Shown: one piece after another, positions 25,572 through 38,882 of the stretch
Position numbering within the stretch: position 1 is the first letter of the stretch
Layout: every line of letters begins with the position of its first letter
Source: Methanosarcina barkeri MS
GTDB taxonomy: Archaea; Halobacteriota; Methanosarcinia; Methanosarcinales; Methanosarcinaceae
Direction: 5' to 3'
NCBI RefSeq assembly: GCF_000970025.1
Contig: NZ_CP009528.1
Coordinates: 1,351,168-1,415,167 of the forward strand
DNA: 64,000 nucleotides
Notes under the pieces: model-generated
What the model saw: the letters and a program-made list of their open reading frames with translations, nothing else
The model's database searches: none
What the model was told of the DNA's origin: nothing
Position numbers and translations under genes: made by a program

Positions 25572-26840
25572 TCAATTTTCTTTTCTAACAGGTAGGGTCT
25601 GCCCTCCATGAGGCATAAGGTGAATTTTTGCGTCAGGATTTTCCGATAGCACTGCAGACAAGGCCTCCTCTACACTTACCATAGGAGTAAAGAATGCATT
25701 TCTTGTTTGCTCGTCTGAAAGTTTTGAAACCAGATAAAGCTTAAATCTTTTTGAAGTTTTTGCAATGATTGCCGTCTTGTGCCCCCCGAATTCAAAACAT
25801 TTTTTGAAACGCTCAATCGCGTCGTCTGGGCTTCGACACTCTCTGTTCCAGCATTCGTAGACCTGGTTTCCTATCCCTTCGGCACATTCGGCTACAAGAA
25901 TGATGGAACCTCCCGCTTTCACAGCCTGAGTTGCATTGTCAAGCGCCTTATTTGCCTGGAAGAGATTGATATCTTTAGGAAAGCCTCCGCAGGAAACAAT
26001 TACCGCATCAGCAGGCTCCACAGACACTTTATACATGGAATCCACAACTTCCACGCCTTTCCTGTGAGCCTCGATAAAGTCCCCGGCAACGGCAGCAACT
26101 ATCTTTTTTTTACTGTCAAGCACCACATTCAGGATAAAATCAAGGCCGAATATTTTTGCGGCTTCTTCCATGTCCTGCCTGACAGGCCCATCAACCCTTC
26201 CGGAAACAGCTTTTTCATCGATCATCATTTTATGGTTTGTAATAACTGTTTCTTTCGAGCTTACACCAGGCAGTATGGACTTTGCCCCTCCACTGTATCC
26301 TGCATAATAATGGAATTCAATGCTTCCGGTCCCTATAACAACATCGGCATCCATAATGTCTTCAAAGACCTCAATCGGGGTTCCACGGGAAGTTATGCCA
26401 ATGCGTCTGCACCTGCCGGTATCATGCTGAATGCAACGAATTTTTTTGTAGACTTCTTCTCCAACCAGTTTTCGGGATTCCTCTTCAGTCTGGTTTCGAT
26501 GAAGCCCGAGAGCAAAGACAATAGTAATATTTTCGTCCTTTATCCCTCCAAGGTAAAGCTCTTCAAGCAGAGAAGGAAGAAGCTTTGCAGTAGGAGTTGG
26601 CCGAGTAACGTCACTAACTATAATTGCAACCTTCGAATCAGGGTTTACAATCTCAGAAATCCTTTTGCTTTTTATGGGATTTTCAAGAGCTTTTTTAATT
26701 AAATAAGTTGGATCTTCCTTTTTTTCAGGCTCTGAAGGCAAAATAATGCTGGATACGTTTCTTTCCGGGATATCCAGCTCAAGTGCCGTGCTTCCAAAAG
26801 CTAATGATATTGTTTTTGTGTTTTCAATCATATTTGGCAC
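25572..26840 (-). CDS. LarA-type nickel-dependent 2-hydroxyacid racemase, paralog 1
   Basis: A 422-residue LarA (DUF2088) protein. All residues known to matter in Lactobacillus LarA have counterparts with the same spacing: D77/R80 (SDVTRPTPT), H114 (GLHRNQ), H177 (FHYYAGYSGG), K187 (the lysine that holds the Ni-pincer cofactor), H203 (Ni ligand), and Q...K in FPKDINLFQANK. It should therefore bind the nickel-pincer nucleotide; LarB/C/E that make it are not in the window. Paralogs 2 and 3 have ~10 extra residues after the Ni-His that this one lacks, so its substrate may differ. Confidence 0.85.
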   Translation of the reverse strand: MPNMIENTKTISLAFGSTALELDIPERNVSSIILPSEPEKKEDPTYLIKKALENPIKSKRISEIVNPDSKVAIIVSDVTRPTPTAKLLPSLLEELYLGGIKDENITIVFALGLHRNQTEEESRKLVGEEVYKKIRCIQHDTGRCRRIGITSRGTPIEVFEDIMDADVVIGTGSIEFHYYAGYSGGAKSILPGVSSKETVITNHKMMIDEKAVSGRVDGPVRQDMEEAAKIFGLDFILNVVLDSKKKIVAAVAGDFIEAHRKGVEVVDSMYKVSVEPADAVIVSCGGFPKDINLFQANKALDNATQAVKAGGSIILVAECAEGIGNQVYECWNRECRSPDDAIERFKKCFEFGGHKTAIIAKTSKRFKLYLVSKLSDEQTRNAFFTPMVSVEEALSAVLSENPDAKIHLMPHGGQTLPVRKEN

Positions 26841-26919
26841 TTCACTTGACCTTTTTTCTATATTTGCTTTTATAATTGTCTTCTTTTACAGCTATCATTT
26901 CATATCTGTCTTTTATAGC

Positions 26920-26994
26920 CGTCTTCTTATAGCCATCTACTTATAGCCATCTACTTATAGCCGTTTTCTTATAGTTGTCTTTATAGCTGTCTTT
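26920..26994. repeat. ATAGCCATCTACTT-type repeats
   Basis: TATAGCCATCTACT/TATAGCCGTTTTCT/TATAGTTGTCTT/TATAGCTGTCTT units between larA-like 1 and 2, in the promoter region of paralog 1. Confidence 0.75.
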
Positions 26995-28257
26995 TTATTT
27001 CATTATGGGCAGAGTCCACCCGCCATTGGGCATAACATGGACTTTAGCGTCAGGGTTTTCTGAAAAAATCTTTTCAAGTGCTTCTTCGACGCTTTTTACA
27101 GGAGTAAAGAAAGTATTTCTGCTTTCAGTGTCCGGAAGTTTAGAGACAAGATAAAGTTTGAAGGTTTTTGCAGCCCTCCCAACAGTGGCAGCTTTGTGTC
27201 CCCCAAATTCAAAACATTTTCTGAATTTCTGTATCGCCTCATCGGGAGTTTTGCATTCTGTACTCCAGCGCTCATATACCTTATTCCCGATCCCTTCAGT
27301 ACATTCAGCCACAAGCACTATTACTCCTCCTTTTTTTACAGCAAAAACTGCATTTTCAAGGGATTTTGTCGCCTGGAAAAGGTTAATGTCTTTTGGAAAA
27401 CCTCCGCACGAGACAATTGCTGCATCCGCAGGTTCTACAGGCACCTTGTACATGGAATCAACAACTTCTACTCCTTGTCTGTGAGCTTCGATGAAATCTC
27501 CAGCAACGGCATCAACTATCTCTTTTTTGCTGTTAAGCACGACATTAAGGATAAAGTTAAGGCCCGCAATCCTTGCAGCTTCCTCTATATTTTGTCGTGC
27601 CGGACTGTCGGTTCTGCCTGAGAGAGGGTCTCCTTCAAAGAGTTTGCTATAAAAACTATGATAAGAAAGAATCGATTTTTCCGAACTGACTCCCGGAAGA
27701 ACAGATTTCCCTCCTCCACTGTATCCCGCATAATAATGAAATTCCAGGGTTCCTGTGCTTATGATAACGTCGGAGTCTGCTACTTCTTCAAAGACTTCTA
27801 CAGGCGTTCCGAAACTTGTCTCTCCTAGATGCCTGCACCTTTTCCTGTCATGCTGGATGCAGCGAATTTTTTTGTAGACTTCTTCTCCAACCAGTTTTCG
27901 GGATTCTTCTTCTGTCTGGTTTCGATGGAGCCCGAGGGCAAAAACAATAGTAATATTTTCATCTTTTACCCCTCCAAGATAAAGCTCATCAAGTAGAGGA
28001 GGAAGAAGTTTTGCAGTAGGAGTTGGCCGAGTAACATCACTAACTATGATTGCAACCTTTGAATCAGGGTTTACAATCTCAGAAAGCCTTCGGCTTTTAA
28101 TGGGATTTTCAAGCGCTTTTTTAATAAGGGAAGCTCTGTCTTCCTTAATTTCAAACTCCGAAGGCAAAATAGCACTGGCAAGATTTCTTTCAGGAATTTC
28201 AAACTCAATTCCCGTACTTCCAAAAGCAAGTGATATTTTTTTTATGTTTGCAGTCAT
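26995..28257 (-). CDS. LarA-type nickel-dependent 2-hydroxyacid racemase, paralog 2
   Basis: A 420-residue protein strongly similar to its two neighbours. It has SDVTRPTPT, GLHRNQ, FHYYAGYSGGGK with the cofactor Lys ten residues after the His, and the Ni-His 16 residues later in SILSYHSFYSKLFEGDPL. That last segment is an insertion shared with paralog 3 only. The Q...K pair (LFQATKSLENA) is kept. Likely active LarA enzyme; substrate unknown. It has its own 150-250 bp upstream gap, so separate promoters are likely. Confidence 0.85.
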   Translation of the reverse strand: MTANIKKISLAFGSTGIEFEIPERNLASAILPSEFEIKEDRASLIKKALENPIKSRRLSEIVNPDSKVAIIVSDVTRPTPTAKLLPPLLDELYLGGVKDENITIVFALGLHRNQTEEESRKLVGEEVYKKIRCIQHDRKRCRHLGETSFGTPVEVFEEVADSDVIISTGTLEFHYYAGYSGGGKSVLPGVSSEKSILSYHSFYSKLFEGDPLSGRTDSPARQNIEEAARIAGLNFILNVVLNSKKEIVDAVAGDFIEAHRQGVEVVDSMYKVPVEPADAAIVSCGGFPKDINLFQATKSLENAVFAVKKGGVIVLVAECTEGIGNKVYERWSTECKTPDEAIQKFRKCFEFGGHKAATVGRAAKTFKLYLVSKLPDTESRNTFFTPVKSVEEALEKIFSENPDAKVHVMPNGGWTLPIMK

Positions 28258-28374
28258 GTTTATGCCGATGTTTTATCTTGATATTATTTTTCTTTTTATT
28301 ATTTTACAATAATAAGGGTAAACAAGTATAAAAAGAACGAGAAGGTAGTTTTAAATGAAAAGGTAATTTTCAAG

Positions 28375-28470
28375 GAGAGGGTAATTTTAAGGAGGAAGTA
28401 ATTTTAAGGAGGTAATTTTAAGGAGGTAATTTTAAGGAAGAAGTAATTTTAAGGAAGAAGTAATTTTAAC
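28375..28470. repeat. TAATTTTAAGGAGG-type tandem repeat
   Basis: Seven or so units alternate 14 bp (TAATTTTAAGGAGG) and 17 bp (with GAA inserted). On the plus strand the units look like serial ribosome-binding sites, but no gene follows. Confidence 0.9.
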
Positions 28471-28509
28471 GGCAACTTAAACCTTCGTCTTTTTATCTAT
28501 AGTACATTT

Positions 28510-29778
28510 TTATTGCTTTACAGTCAAAGTCCACCCACCATTTGGCATAACATGGATTTTAGCATCAGGATTTTCTGAAAGAACCTTCTCAAGCGCTTCA
28601 TCTATGCTTTTTGTCGGTATAAAGAACGCATTTCTACTTTCCGTCTCTGGAAGTTTTGATACCAAATACAGTTTGAATTCTTTTGCAGTTCTCCCTACAA
28701 TAGCAGCTTTGTGCCCACCGAACTCACAATGGTTCTTGAAACGTTTGACTGCATCTTCAGGAGCCCTGCATTCCCTGTTCCAGCACTCATAAACTTTGTT
28801 TCCTATTCCCTCGGCACATTCGGCTACAAGGATAATTGAACCTCCTTTTTTTACGGCAGAGGTAGCGTTTTCAAGTGATTTTGTTGCCTGGTAAAGATTG
28901 ATATCCTTTGGAAAACCACCGCAGGAAACAACTACAGCATCCGCAGGCTCTACAGGTACTTTATACATAGCATCGACATACTCTGTCCCTTTCCTGTGGG
29001 CTCCGACTAAATCGCCTGCAACGGCATCAACTATCTCTTTTTTGCTGTCAAGTACAACATTCAGGATAAAGTCAAGGCCTGTAATCCTTGCAGCTTCCTC
29101 TATGTTCTTTCTTGCCGGACTGTCGGTTCTGCCTGAGAGAGGGTCTCCTTCAAAGAGTTTGCTATAAAAGCTATGGAATGAGAGAATGGATTTTTCCGAA
29201 CTTACTCCTGGAAGGATGGACTTCCCTCCTCCTCCATATCCTGCATAATAATGAAATTCCAGCGTTCCTGTGCTTATGATAACGTCGGAGTCTACTACTT
29301 CTTCAAAAACCTCTACAGGTGTTCCGAAACTTGTCTCCCCGAGATGCTTGCACCTTTTCCTGTCGTGCTGGATACATCTTATTTTTTCAAAGATCTCTTT
29401 CCCTACAAGCTGGCAGCACTCTTCTTCAGTTTGTAAACGATGAAGTCCAAGGGCAAAAACAATAGTGATATTCTCGTTTTTTGCTCCTCCAAGATAAAGC
29501 TCTTCAAGTAGAGGAGGAAGAATTTTTGCAGTAGGAGTTGGCCGTGTAACATCGCTTACGATAATTGCAATTCTCGAATCAGGGTTTACAATCTCAGAAA
29601 GCCTTTTGCTTTTAATGGGATTTTCAAGCGCCTTTTTAATTAGGGAAGCCCCTTCTTCCTTTATTTCTAATTCCGAAGGCAAGATAATACTGGAAATGTT
29701 TTTCTCAGGGATATCAAGCTTTAAAATCCCGCTTCCAAACGCAAGTGGAATCGTTTTTACATTCGTAGTCATGATCAT
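28510..29778 (-). CDS. LarA-type nickel-dependent 2-hydroxyacid racemase, paralog 3
   Basis: A 422-residue protein (an in-frame ATG at 29772 is an alternative start). It is closest to paralog 2, with the same SFHSFYSKLFEGDPLSGRTDSPAR insertion after the Ni-His, FHYYAGYGGGGK and LYQATKSLENA. GLHRLQTEEECCQL differs from GLHRNQTEEESRKL of the others, next to the active-site His. It is the first gene of the minus-strand LarA triplet. Role as for paralog 1. Confidence 0.85.
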   Translation of the reverse strand: MIMTTNVKTIPLAFGSGILKLDIPEKNISSIILPSELEIKEEGASLIKKALENPIKSKRLSEIVNPDSRIAIIVSDVTRPTPTAKILPPLLEELYLGGAKNENITIVFALGLHRLQTEEECCQLVGKEIFEKIRCIQHDRKRCKHLGETSFGTPVEVFEEVVDSDVIISTGTLEFHYYAGYGGGGKSILPGVSSEKSILSFHSFYSKLFEGDPLSGRTDSPARKNIEEAARITGLDFILNVVLDSKKEIVDAVAGDLVGAHRKGTEYVDAMYKVPVEPADAVVVSCGGFPKDINLYQATKSLENATSAVKKGGSIILVAECAEGIGNKVYECWNRECRAPEDAVKRFKNHCEFGGHKAAIVGRTAKEFKLYLVSKLPETESRNAFFIPTKSIDEALEKVLSENPDAKIHVMPNGGWTLTVKQ

Positions 29779-29970
29779 TCCGATGTCATAGTATTAATTA
29801 TATAAAATCATATAGGTAAACAATAAAAAATTAAATTCTAAAAAGAATTCGAACCGACATCTATAGGACTTTTATATTATAATTAGTTTATGATATTGCA
29901 ATGGTTTTTTATGTTATATTTTGTTTCCACTTATTTTTTCCAGAAGGTTCAATTAAATTTCCGGTAACGT

Positions 29971-30085
29971 TTGCAGTGTAGCATTTGCAGTGTAGCATTT
30001 GCAGTGTAGCATTTGTAGTGCAGCATTTGTAGTGCAGCATTTGCAGTGTAACATTTGCAGTGTAACATTTGCAGTGCTTCATTTC
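29971..30085. repeat. 14-bp minisatellite, about eight copies
   Basis: GCAGTGTAGCATTT units at 29973, 29987, 30001 and onward, with variants GTAGTGCAGC and GCAGTGTAAC. The period is not a multiple of three, so the frame across it is an artefact. Confidence 0.95.
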
Positions 30086-30364
30086 CTGCCATAATTTACA
30101 TGCGATTTTAAAACTCCGCAAGAGACACTTTTATTTATATTTATTGAGCTCGTTTCAGAACCGATCTTATTTGCACATAAATAAGAGTTCAGAACTGGTT
30201 TTATAATAGGAAGATTGATTGATAATTAAAAATTAAAGTCATTACAAACCTGCATACCACTGTTAATTTATTTAAAAAAACATTCAGACGCATAAGTACC
30301 GAAAAGAATTTTTTTGGTGCTTCAGAGGAGGCAGGAAAAGGAAATTCGTTGTGGGGGAGATTAA
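30086..30364. promoter_or_regulatory. Upstream region of cooS
   Basis: No ORF. AGAGGAGGCAGG (about 30326) and GTGGGGGAGATTAAATG supply the ribosome-binding site of CooS; a TTTATTTATATTTATT tract near 30129 is a possible promoter. Confidence 0.4.
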
Positions 30365-32269
30365 ATGGACAAAGAAAGAATTTCTTATCACGAATCCGTT
30401 CTGAATATGTATGAGCGGATAAAAAAAGACGGGATGACGAATGTCTGGGACCGTTACGAAGCCCAGGGTCTGGGAGGAAATCCAGACAAAAGATGTACTT
30501 TCTGTATGGGAGGAGTGCGCTGCGACCTGTGTTCCAACGGGCCATGCCGTTCGGATGCTGCAAAAGACAAAAGAGGAGTATGCGGAATCACTGCCGATGG
30601 TATGGCAATGCGGATGATGCTTCTCAGAAATGTGATGGGAGCTTCTACTTACCACTATCATACGGATCAGACCATCAGGACTTTGAGGGAAACTGCCAGA
30701 GGCAACACTCCTTATACAATAATGGAACCTGAAAAGTTAAGGACGTTTGCAAGCCGGCTGGGGCTCAAAACCGAAGGATCGGACTCAGAAATTGCTCTTC
30801 GCCTTTGTGAGTTTGTAGAAAAGGAGTTTAACAGACCTGCCTACGAACCAAGCCGGATTGTTGAGTTCCTTGCTCCTCCCGAAAGAAAAGAAAAGTGGAG
30901 AGCACTGGATATATTTCCAGGTGGAATCTACGGGGAGATGATGCTTTCCACAAGCTCCTGCCTGACAAATGTGGATGGGTATTATGCTAGCCTGGCCTTA
31001 AAAGCCATGCGTCTGGGAATTGCAATGGGATACCAGAGCCAGATTGTAAACGAATATTGCCAGGACATCCTTTTTGGAATTCCCAGACCCCACAATATGA
31101 GAGTAGACCTTGGCGTGCTTGATCCTGAGTACGTGAACGTGCTCCCTAATGGGCACGAACCATTTATCGGCTTTGCCATGGTCCAGCTTGCCCGAAAACC
31201 GGAATGGCAGGAAAAAGCAAAAACTGCAGGAGCAAAGGGACTGAGGGTTATTGCTAGCATTGAAACAGGGCAGGAAATGATCCAGAGATGGGAGGAAGAC
31301 AATGCTTTCTACGGATTTACAGGCAACTGGATTTCCCAGGAAGCGGTGTTTGCAAGCGGAAGCGTGGATCTCTTTGCAGCAGATATGAACTGTTCTCTTC
31401 CTGTTGCTCCCCTTTATGCCGAAAAATACAATTTTAAACTCATGCCTGTAAGTGAACTCGTAGCCTTCGAAGGCATCGGGGAACGCCTGAACTATAATCC
31501 CACCGAAGCCGAAAAGCAGGCAGCACAACTTCTGGATATGGCGATTGAAAATTTCAAAAAACGAAAAAGCTCGATAGAATCCGTTTCGAAGCTCCCTATG
31601 AAAGAATCTGTGGTAGGCTTTTCAAACGAGAGCATCCTTGCAGCGCTTGGAGGCAGCTTTGCCCCTCTCCTTGATGCTATAAAAAACGGAGCAATTAAAG
31701 GAATTGTGGGGATGGTATCCTGTACTACCTTGAGGGACTACGGTCAGGATGTATACAGCGTTGCTGTGGTAAAAGAGCTTATCAAAAGAAATATCCTTGT
31801 TCTGTCTCTTGGTTGCGGGAACGGAGCTATGCAAGTGGCAGGCCTCTGTACCCCTGAAGCCAGAGAATTTGCAGGAGACAGCCTAAAAGCCGTATGCAAA
31901 GCCCTGGGCATCCCACCAGTGCTAAGCTTTGGGACCTGTACTGATACAGGCAGGCTTGCTGATCTTCTTGGAGCTATCTCCAGAGCCCTCGGAGGAGTTC
32001 CAATTCCTGACCTTCCTGTTGCTGCCGCAGCACCTGAGTATATGGAACAGAAAGCCACAATAGATGCTATCTTTGCTCTGGCCCTCGGGCTCTATACTTA
32101 TGTGAACCCGGTCCCGACAGTCACAGGCGCCCCGAATCTGGTCAAACTGCTTACAGAAGACTGTCGGAAAGTTACAGGCGGGGTCATGAATGTGGAAAAA
32201 GATGCAGTAAAAGCCGTTGATGGGATAGAACAACACATTATGGAAAAGAGAAAAAATCTTGGAATCTAA
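30365..32269 (+). CDS. cooS: CODH-fold CooS protein with hybrid-cluster-protein-like active site
   Basis: A 634-residue CooS-type protein. Cluster B cysteines are present (C53, C56, C61, C73). The D-cluster pair is changed: C44 and an extra C47, while the usual second Cys is R52. At the C-cluster, H264, C343, C453, C484 and C525 match the CODH ligands, but the canonical Cys-Cys-Thr-Gly is I299-E300-T301-G302, so one Ni-Fe cluster cysteine is Glu. E561-Q-K563 gives the E-x-K pair of hybrid cluster protein. The usual CODH proton-transfer His motif is altered (STYHYHTD). It may therefore reduce hydroxylamine or a related compound rather than oxidise CO. No CooF is adjacent. Confidence 0.9.
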   Translation: MDKERISYHESVLNMYERIKKDGMTNVWDRYEAQGLGGNPDKRCTFCMGGVRCDLCSNGPCRSDAAKDKRGVCGITADGMAMRMMLLRNVMGASTYHYHTDQTIRTLRETARGNTPYTIMEPEKLRTFASRLGLKTEGSDSEIALRLCEFVEKEFNRPAYEPSRIVEFLAPPERKEKWRALDIFPGGIYGEMMLSTSSCLTNVDGYYASLALKAMRLGIAMGYQSQIVNEYCQDILFGIPRPHNMRVDLGVLDPEYVNVLPNGHEPFIGFAMVQLARKPEWQEKAKTAGAKGLRVIASIETGQEMIQRWEEDNAFYGFTGNWISQEAVFASGSVDLFAADMNCSLPVAPLYAEKYNFKLMPVSELVAFEGIGERLNYNPTEAEKQAAQLLDMAIENFKKRKSSIESVSKLPMKESVVGFSNESILAALGGSFAPLLDAIKNGAIKGIVGMVSCTTLRDYGQDVYSVAVVKELIKRNILVLSLGCGNGAMQVAGLCTPEAREFAGDSLKAVCKALGIPPVLSFGTCTDTGRLADLLGAISRALGGVPIPDLPVAAAAPEYMEQKATIDAIFALALGLYTYVNPVPTVTGAPNLVKLLTEDCRKVTGGVMNVEKDAVKAVDGIEQHIMEKRKNLGI

Positions 32270-36404: not shown

Positions 36405-38882
36405 CTATATTTTGAGGTAATTTTTTAATAATTCACTTACTCCGTCAGTACCTTCTTTTTCAAGAGCCCACCATTCCAAAAACAGTTTTTCTATATTATA
36501 TAACACTCGAAAGTCTTCATCAATTGAAATATGATTGCTTAATTCATTAATCAGTTGACTTCGTTCATTACGAATTTCAGTAGCTAATGATAATCCGTTT
36601 TCTGAAATGGAATGAGTTCTACCAATGTTATTTATAATTTCAATTGCAGATAATCTTAAATTTAGATTATGATGATTAAGCATCGTTTTTACGACTGCAA
36701 TTGCCTTTCTCCTTGTATAAATTAATTCAGAATTTGCCTGTAAACTAACAGGTCTCCAAGATGTTTTTCCAAAACCATAATCTGAAACTATATGGGTACC
36801 TGAAAGTAATTCAGACAAAGCAGATGATATATTTTCAACAATTGGTTTATCTGAGTTAATCACCCAATTTTGCAAAATCTCTAGAGTAGAATTAATTAAG
36901 GCAAGATTATTTTCTGTAGGTGATATTGATGTAAAAATCAATTGATTTGGTTTATAGCTGTCATAAGTACCGTATTTTACTTTTTTATCATATAGTTCAC
37001 TTATAAACTCCAAAACGTTTTCTCTCGAGTGCCCACTTATTAATAATCTTATTACGATTGGCCCATAATTATCTGTAGTAGGGTAGACATTGTTTAGCCA
37101 TCGGTGATCAACTTCGGAAATTTGTGGTAATGGAGAGTCTAAGTAAGTGTACATTAAATCCAATGTTTTATCAGGAACAATATGAACAATTTTTTGTAAC
37201 AATTTTAATTTTTTTATTCGAGTATATCCAAAATCATTGTCAGCATTTTTAACCCAGTCATTTAATAATCCAGAACAATATTTTTTTAAGATCGGGGGAT
37301 TATCAAATTTCGAGGCCGCTGATAAATTTATAAACACTTTATCAGTAGTTACAAAAATCCATTTTTCTATTAGTTCTTTTAAAGTAGATTCATTAGCAAT
37401 TTCTTTTAAATTGTAAGCCAGATATAAATCTCCCTTCATGTCAGGATTAAATCTCAAAGAGTTACCAACGATTCTTAATAGACCAATTTTTATGAGAATA
37501 TCAAGTGATTTGGTTATTTTTTCTACACTTTGTGAACATAGAACACTTAGATTTTTCACTATTTCATCGTCTTTTTGCGAAAAAGGAACTATGAGAGAGA
37601 GATTTAATATAAAATTTTTGATGATTGAAGCTTCAAGAACACCATTTAAACATTTTTTAGCTTCATAATTAATGTCATTGACAAAGTTATTTTTAATAGT
37701 GTTGAATTCAATTACTTGATCATTTTTAATTTGTTTTCCAATCCACACAATCAAATAAGGATTTAAAAAAGTATTGACGATTATTTCTTCATCGTCTATT
37801 CGTTCTTTTCCTGCAACAATTCTCAAAAGTTGAATTAAATCTTCATTAGACCATCTTGTGATCATCAGTTCTTCACGAGAATTTTTGCATGGCAGTTGAT
37901 TTATTATTTCATTGATGCCTTGTAATCCAGATGTTCTGGTTGACAGAATAACTTTAATATTTTTATTGATATATGAAATATAAGACAAAAGAGGTTTTAC
38001 TTCTTCTGGATATCTATCGGCGTCGTCAAAAATTAATAGATATTTTTTATTTTTAACTATTTCGTTTGATATTGCATCGTTGATTTCTGGAAATCCAGGA
38101 GTTACAATAAAAACTTCTCTATTCAAATCTATCTCATTGATAGTAGAGGCAATTTCCCTTAGTAAATGAGATTTTCCATAACCTCCAGGGGAATGTATTA
38201 TAAAAATATTACTGGTTTGAGAAAGTATAAAATTTCTGGCCGTATGCAGATAAGCTTTAAACGTAGGAATTTCAGAAGATAATGCTGGAATCAAGTCAAT
38301 TTCGTTTTTAGAGAAATATTCGCACCAGTTTACAAATTTATATATCTTTGGTTTTGAAAGAGTATCTATTGAGTTTCTTATTTCTTCTGTGTTACTTTCA
38401 ATTCGGTCTATTTTATCTTCAAGTAAATTCAAACGGAATTGTGTTTTTGCATCATGAGCAGAAACAATTCCCTCTGAAACGGCTTCGTTTAATGTTAGTT
38501 TGCACCCTTCAATTAAAATATTAAAAAGATTAGATGCAAAAGAATCACAGTTCTCAGTTTTTAGTTCAAAATTGAGTGAAAATAATAAACAAAAATCATA
38601 TTTTATTTCTTCAAGACTTTTATGTACTAATCCTTGATCAAAAATTTGTAGAACTATTGATTCGACATCATCGGATTTCAAAAATAAAGATAATGATTTC
38701 GCTTCGATTTCTGGAAATTCTTCAAATAAAATTTTCGTTTCAATGATTGATTCGAAGTCCGTCTTATTAATCAGTATGTTTTCAATATCTTTATTAAATA
38801 TTTTTGAATATGCTAGTTTGAAAGACTCTATAACCAAACTGGGTACAACATTTGTTAGCATTGAAGAAATAACAGTTTCCAT
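36405..38882 (-). CDS. STAND-type P-loop NTPase, N-terminal part
   Basis: An 825-residue frame. Residues 1-200 are helical with a coiled-coil stretch (LNLLEDKIDRIESNTEEIRNSID is seen near 150). A P-loop NTPase follows: Walker A HSPGGYGKSH, Walker B YLLIFDDADR, a sensor arginine in LSTRTSG, and a winged-helix-like segment. The C-terminal half is helical repeats. The layout fits STAND NTPases, many of which sense invaders and trigger cell suicide; no effector domain is recognised at the N-terminus. It is AT-rich compared with neighbouring core genes, suggesting an accessory origin. It stops at A_AAA_AAT, after which the next frame continues. Confidence 0.75.
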   Translation of the reverse strand: METVISSMLTNVVPSLVIESFKLAYSKIFNKDIENILINKTDFESIIETKILFEEFPEIEAKSLSLFLKSDDVESIVLQIFDQGLVHKSLEEIKYDFCLLFSLNFELKTENCDSFASNLFNILIEGCKLTLNEAVSEGIVSAHDAKTQFRLNLLEDKIDRIESNTEEIRNSIDTLSKPKIYKFVNWCEYFSKNEIDLIPALSSEIPTFKAYLHTARNFILSQTSNIFIIHSPGGYGKSHLLREIASTINEIDLNREVFIVTPGFPEINDAISNEIVKNKKYLLIFDDADRYPEEVKPLLSYISYINKNIKVILSTRTSGLQGINEIINQLPCKNSREELMITRWSNEDLIQLLRIVAGKERIDDEEIIVNTFLNPYLIVWIGKQIKNDQVIEFNTIKNNFVNDINYEAKKCLNGVLEASIIKNFILNLSLIVPFSQKDDEIVKNLSVLCSQSVEKITKSLDILIKIGLLRIVGNSLRFNPDMKGDLYLAYNLKEIANESTLKELIEKWIFVTTDKVFINLSAASKFDNPPILKKYCSGLLNDWVKNADNDFGYTRIKKLKLLQKIVHIVPDKTLDLMYTYLDSPLPQISEVDHRWLNNVYPTTDNYGPIVIRLLISGHSRENVLEFISELYDKKVKYGTYDSYKPNQLIFTSISPTENNLALINSTLEILQNWVINSDKPIVENISSALSELLSGTHIVSDYGFGKTSWRPVSLQANSELIYTRRKAIAVVKTMLNHHNLNLRLSAIEIINNIGRTHSISENGLSLATEIRNERSQLINELSNHISIDEDFRVLYNIEKLFLEWWALEKEGTDGVSELLKNYLKI
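36420..36426 (-). other. Heptamer A_AAA_AAT at the frame junction
   Basis: Read in the frame of the 825-aa ORF, the minus strand has tta-aaa-aat. A -1 slip on this heptamer enters exactly the frame of the downstream half. A lost A from an A7 run gives the same result. No strong hairpin follows. Confidence 0.7.

Follow-up and report, generated by a model that had tools for sequence, protein, structure and literature searches.

A gene of Methanosarcina barkeri MS has the fold of a CO dehydrogenase (CODH) and had been described in an initial annotation as having the ligand set of hybrid cluster protein (HCP). This raises the question of which cluster its product holds and what job it does. The window, meaning the whole stretch of DNA analysed, is 64,000 nucleotides long. 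The gene lies at 30365-32269 on the plus strand and encodes 634 amino acids. It starts with ATG, and a purine-rich GGGGGAG stands immediately 5' of the start. Based on sequence search, alignment, tree and structure model it was classed as a cooS-V-type gene of clade D, structural group D-1, with the CODH fold and a predicted hybrid [4Fe-3S-nO] cluster. The probability that it belongs to the CooS-V family and carries a nickel-free hybrid cluster at the C-cluster site was estimated at about 0.88. Clade D and group D-1 were defined by Inoue 2019, who described the HCP-like ligands and included Methanosarcina acetivorans (PMC6344411), and the structure of CooS-V was solved by Jeoung 2022 (PMC9311411). 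The family is therefore already described, and the gene is read as a further and in itself ordinary member of it.

Identity of the protein

The protein matched the NCBIfam model of the CO dehydrogenase catalytic subunit with 745.8 bits (cut-off 478) and was assigned to Prismane in Pfam. The hydroxylamine reductase/HCP model (NCBIfam TIGR01703) gave 36.1 bits against a cut-off of 360.8, placing the protein outside the HCP family. When all PDB sequences were searched the best match was CooS-V of Carboxydothermus (7b7q) with 675 bits, followed by a CODH with 386 bits. Identity was 51% to CooS-V and 34-36% to true CODHs. The AlphaFold model had a pLDDT of 87.7 and a pTM of 0.90. Its top PDB matches were the CooS-V structures 7b9a and 7b7q (TM 0.96-0.97, 1.4-1.5 Å), compared to TM 0.92-0.93 for true CODHs. 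A CODH-scaffold structure from Carboxydothermus with an HCP-like cluster was mentioned in the initial annotation. That structure exists and is CooS-V (Jeoung 2022, PMC9311411).

Cluster ligands and conserved residues

The protein was aligned using MAFFT to CooS-V (7b7q), CODH-IV, Desulfovibrio vulgaris CODH and Thermococcus AM4 CODH. All features below are on the plus strand. The five C-cluster ligands named in the initial annotation aligned as claimed with CooS-V and the three true CODHs: His264 (31154-31156; His259 of CooS-V), Cys343 (31388-31393 with the preceding HCP-like Asn342; C338), Cys453 (31721-31723; C449), Cys484 (31814-31816; C480) and Cys525 (31937-31939; C521, the persulfide cysteine, PMC9311411). 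The position of Glu300 (31262-31264) was inspected for an aligned Cys. CooS-V Glu295 was found there, and the claim of a Glu at a CODH Cys ligand position stands. This position is Cys295 in CODH-IV/CODH-II numbering and true CODHs carry Cys at it, so the complete canonical C-cluster set of His and five Cys is absent from the protein. Glu561-Gln562-Lys563 (32045-32053) is identical to the E-x-K motif of HCP and aligns with it, as had been proposed. Glu561 and Lys563 correspond to Glu556 and K558 of CooS-V, and the position of Glu561 is Ser or His in true CODHs. Tyr96 (30650-30652) replaces the acid-base His93 of CODH.

The Cys pair of the D-cluster had been reported as altered. It is altered into a recognised alternative, the type III motif C44-x2-C47 (30494-30505; motif named in PMC6344411), at which an interfacial [2Fe-2S] cluster is expected. 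The type III D-cluster is a [2Fe-2S] cluster in CooS-V and D. vulgaris CODH. Arg52 stands where the type-II D-cluster has its second Cys. The B-cluster cysteines C53, C56, C61 and C73 ([4Fe-4S], 30521-30583) are intact, the spacing of the last two being one residue shorter than in CooS-V.

Fourteen residues were invariant in 135 of 135 E300-type sequences: H264, E300, E304, N342, C343, C453, C484, G485, C525, E561, Q562, K563, C53 and Y96. Part of this set consisted of contig loci found by patterns including EQK, so E561 was pre-selected there; the set from the genome search is free of this bias. C47 was present in 133 of the 135. Judged by this conservation the ligand pattern is not due to chance. 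All group D-1 signatures of Inoue 2019 were found in the protein (H-E-C-C-C-C, Tyr, Lys, type III D-cluster and Glu two residues before Lys), and no differences from them were found.

Comparison with CooS-V and canonical CooS

CooS-V (CODH-V) of Carboxydothermus hydrogenoformans (PDB 7b7q, 7b7t, 7b95, 7b97, 7b9a) shares with the window protein the ligands including Glu295 and Glu556, the type III D-cluster and the best structural match. CooS-V contains no Ni and neither oxidises CO nor reduces CO2 (PMC9311411). The C295E mutant of CODH-II loses both Ni and CO oxidation (PMC6344411, PMC9311411). On reduction the oxidised [4Fe-2S-S*-2O-2H2O] cluster of CooS-V becomes [4Fe-3S], and the change is reversible, with potentials between -390 and +80 mV (PMC9311411). 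The gas channel is blocked by the Cys521 persulfide in the oxidised state and opened by reduction, from which the authors infer a reductase (PMC9311411). Hydroxylamine is reduced very slowly (kcat 0.13/s, kcat/KM 20 per M per s), and no reduction of NO could be detected (PMC9311411). All CooS-V residues involved are present in the window protein, and by homology the same cluster chemistry, without Ni and without CO activity, is therefore expected.

Canonical archaeal CooS accompanied by CooF is alike in fold, in the His and in four of the five Cys. It differs in having Cys300, Gln342, Ser561, His96 and a CooF neighbour, whereas the window gene has no CooF. In the other CooS of the same genome (L063) no C-cluster ligand is missing, and the gene after it is CooF.

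Comparison with hybrid cluster protein

HCP classes I-III (hydroxylamine reductase) share with the window protein the aligned His, four Cys, the Asn before the first Cys and the E-Q-K motif. The window protein differs in its CODH fold and size and in the ligand Glu. In two alignments the ligand Glu of HCP (HGE motif) fell on E304, and the HCPs of Methanosarcinaceae were gapped at E300. The HCP-like ligand set of the initial annotation thus holds for the residue types and for E561, but E300 is not at the position of the HCP Glu. E304 is found in every CooS. Because the Glu of HCP aligns with a residue common to all CooS, E300 would be convergent and would reach the cluster from a different position. 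The same remark was made for CODH-V by Fujishiro and Takaoka (Fujishiro 2023, PMC10502027). According to the aligned sequences the HCP-homologous residues of the window protein are E561 and N342.

Gene neighbourhood in the window

The gene has a divergent larA-type gene on one side and a convergent MBL hydrolase gene on the other, an order that Methanosarcina-like genomes keep and more distant ones lack. Three larA-type copies, the MBL hydrolase and a DUF2117 gene were considered as operon partners and rejected although they are conserved beside the gene across Methanosarcina-like genomes. The nearest flanking genes are encoded on the other strand, and in the next genera the set is gone, so they were not counted as partners. 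The larA-type genes are three tandem copies of LarAH6-type nickel-dependent malate racemase (25572-29778, minus strand; NF052593, 557-601 bits), of which two or three are kept in related genomes. The intergenic stretch between the gene and the divergent larA copy is 586 bp long (29779-30364). It contains a 14-bp minisatellite at 29970-30076 (TTTGCAGTGTAGCA, 7.6 copies). At the same place in two relatives checked, one had a similar 14-bp repeat and the other had different short tandem repeats. No stress-gene neighbours of the gene were found in the window, and no MsvR box (TTCGN7-9CGAA) was found upstream of it. A single such site in the window, at 36560, is no more than chance predicts, and MsvR regulation was rejected there. 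An 825-amino acid protein with an nSTAND NTPase domain (PF25199), a kind seen in defence proteins, is encoded at 36405-38882 on the minus strand.

Gene neighbourhoods of relatives

Genes within 2.5 kb of 132 E300/D300-type loci were compared to those of 22 canonical archaeal CooS loci, which served as the baseline for rates. CooF adjoined 16 of the 22 canonical loci and none of the 132. Near the E300/D300-type genes a flavodiiron protein was found at 12 loci, a 95-amino acid FTR-like protein (assigned by eye from its cysteine motif) at eight and rubrerythrin at six. Mostly these genes preceded the CooS gene in the same orientation, in ANME-type Methanosarcinales. An octahaem HAO-like cytochrome with 7-8 CxxCH motifs was present at nine Methanoperedens loci, mostly directly downstream. 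The redox regulator MsvR was present at 12 loci, mostly divergent, in Thermoplasmata and in an archaeon with Asp300. Of these five neighbours only MsvR occurred near a canonical control (1/22). With duplicates merged, 27 loci had at least one of the five. These are a minority and partly related by descent, and no dominant partner was found in a dereplicated set of 38 loci (genes within 350 bp). A general gene-context analysis was included in Inoue 2019 (PMC6344411), and an eLife 2026 survey reported no clear context pattern for clade D (PMC13056359).

Further neighbours were recorded. A ferredoxin-like protein was found at 14 loci. A copper P-type ATPase gene overlapped or lay at most 22 bp downstream at seven loci, of Methanolobus-like genomes apart from one bacterial case; at L045, L048, L049, L159, L161 and L162 it is His-rich and on the same strand as the CooS-V gene.

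Distribution and phylogeny

Identity of the CooS-V-type protein was 86-97% among the Methanosarcina-like genomes having it and 69-76% in other Methanosarcinaceae. Relatives at 53-57% identity were found in ANME and Methanoperedens archaea. Archaeoglobus-like archaea (taxon inferred), Thermoplasmata, Clostridia, Nitrospirota and Deltaproteobacteria held relatives at a similar distance. No relative was found in the viral contigs searched. The D-1 protein of M. acetivorans is presumably CooS2. A methanogen member had been proposed for this locus, and the CooS-V type was confirmed; it is not new for methanogens, as M. acetivorans was already placed in D-1 (Inoue 2019, PMC6344411).

In the CooS tree the E300-type proteins formed one clade holding both CooS-V and the window protein (SH-aLRT 100). 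The archaeal branch that includes the window protein stands on its own long stem, apart from CooS-V. One protein from another archaeal family of the same phylum has Asp300 and is sister to the E300 clade (SH-aLRT 90). Four Methanoperedens rows of the tree have Cys300 and Gly47, yet already carry Tyr96, Asn342 and Glu561. The Cys300/Glu561 forms branch outside both the E300 clade and the Asp300 protein. Gly47 is also found in one E300 protein (L169), which means that the D-cluster change and E300 do not strictly go together; since this protein lies inside the E300 clade, a reversal is likely. When HCP and CdhA were added as outgroups E300 was again nested beside the Cys300 and Asp300 forms. Long branches meet in this tree and the deepest root is left aside for that reason. 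As far as the trees go, the nesting of E300 agrees better with Jeoung's proposal, in which the ancestor was a CODH-like protein, than with the proposal of CODH-V as the earliest branch. What may be new are the relatives with Cys300/Glu561 or Asp300 and the difference in gene neighbours from canonical CooS.

At two Methanoperedens loci (L061, L110) an E300-type and a Cys300/Glu561-type CooS are divergent and a few kb apart, with an AsnC-like regulator, a ferredoxin-like protein and an octahaem HAO-like cytochrome. The CooS with Asp at the Cys295 position and Glu561 (L165/L192, G211) adjoins MsvR and a flavodoxin-domain fragment matching flavodiiron protein. A WOR-3 bacterial MAG (CP070834; L144, 5493-8697) has a tight run of an Rrf2 regulator, a CooS-V 75% identical to the window protein and a 2[4Fe-4S] ferredoxin-like protein. 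This copy suggests archaea-bacteria transfer or a binning error.

Proposed function

The protein would be a homodimer with the CODH fold, an enzyme of the CooS-V family and no CO dehydrogenase. Its C-cluster site would hold a nickel-free Fe/S/O hybrid cluster that morphs with redox state, bound by His264, Glu300, Cys343, Cys453, Cys484, Cys525 and Glu561. Electrons would be fed in by way of the interfacial [2Fe-2S] D-cluster (C44/C47) and the [4Fe-4S] B-clusters, and the hybrid cluster, once reduced, would in turn reduce a small oxidised molecule. Using low-potential electrons, the enzyme would scavenge an oxidised species of nitrogen or oxygen, such as hydroxylamine or an NO-derived or peroxide-like compound. 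This role as a low-potential reductase under redox or nitrosative stress is a tentative proposal, plausible but short of probable, which draws on the neighbours of relatives. Defence against NO or hydroxylamine had been suggested in the initial annotation. The neighbourhoods of relatives favour a redox-stress role, but the specific role stays tentative. Purified CooS-V reduces hydroxylamine very slowly and NO not detectably, and the window gene has neither stress-gene neighbours nor an MsvR box. The neighbour evidence comes from 27 merged loci of partly shared descent, and the M. acetivorans knockout study, as cited in PMC6344411 and PMC4652020, was read as a contribution to CO use.

An unlikely alternative is a redox sensor or regulator, in which the cluster would switch structure at low potential and report redox state without substrate turnover. 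The reversible restructuring and slow turnover of CooS-V are consistent with it (PMC9311411), redox sensing was suggested for clade D in the eLife 2026 survey (PMC13056359) and MsvR is the gene's divergent neighbour at roughly ten archaeal loci. The opening of the channel in the reduced state only was, however, read by the authors as the behaviour of a reductase (PMC9311411). The buried ligand shell and Lys563 are fully conserved, which fits catalysis, and a domain search of the window protein found no regulatory domain.

Functional replacement of HCP where HCP has been lost is somewhat less likely again. A profile search found no HCP gene in the window genome, which has two CooS-type and two CdhA genes, and several archaeal families have a CooS-V-type protein and no HCP above cut-off. 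But within the genus Methanosarcina, counted by hand, HCP was also present in 12 of 17 genomes with a CooS-V-type protein and in 11 of 14 without. This co-occurrence means that the protein is not simply an HCP stand-in, and the replacement reading was rejected as presence and absence show no trade-off. The potentials of CooS-V, about 300 mV below those of HCP, also suggest a different job (PMC9311411).

A working Ni,Fe-CODH that tolerates Glu for Cys295 and helps the methanogen remove CO is very improbable: the general CODH model matches far above its cut-off, M. acetivorans genetics (Rother 2007, knockouts of monofunctional CODHs) are cited in Inoue 2019 as suggesting D-1 in CO oxidation (PMC6344411) and a review credits CooS1F and CooS2 with assisting CO removal (PMC4652020), but the ligand set and fold are those of Ni-free CooS-V, the C295E mutant has lost Ni and CO oxidation, CooF is absent beside all 132 loci, the same genome holds a complete CooS with CooF, and a Clostridium autoethanogenum acsA knockout with cooS1 and cooS2 still present did not oxidise CO (PMC4895105), the D-1 enzyme of that organism being reported by Inoue not to compensate for AcsA. 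The cooS of Archaeoglobus fulgidus is not induced by CO (PMC4543118).

Possible origin and significance

The low-potential reductase remains the preferred reading of function. A broader proposal is offered more tentatively still. D-1 proteins may form a stress module apart from CO metabolism and HCP, together with flavodiiron protein, FTR-like protein, rubrerythrin, HAO-like octahaem cytochrome and MsvR. The hybrid cluster may have arisen stepwise inside clade D, with a Tyr96/Asn342/Glu561 background and five cysteines first, extant in Methanoperedens, an Asp300 form elsewhere, and the change of Cys300 to Glu later. If true, a stepwise origin would argue against CODH-V as the earliest CODH to split from HCP. 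The Cys300/Glu561 and Asp300 relatives would then be natural steps between the Ni,Fe cluster and the hybrid cluster and would supply natural intermediates.

CooS-V-type genes are labelled carbon monoxide dehydrogenase by annotation pipelines, and CO metabolism is therefore overestimated in methanogens and ANME archaea. The gene occurs in a genetically tractable genus, frequently alongside a canonical CooS and in some cases where HCP is missing, which makes the role of the CooS-V family directly testable.
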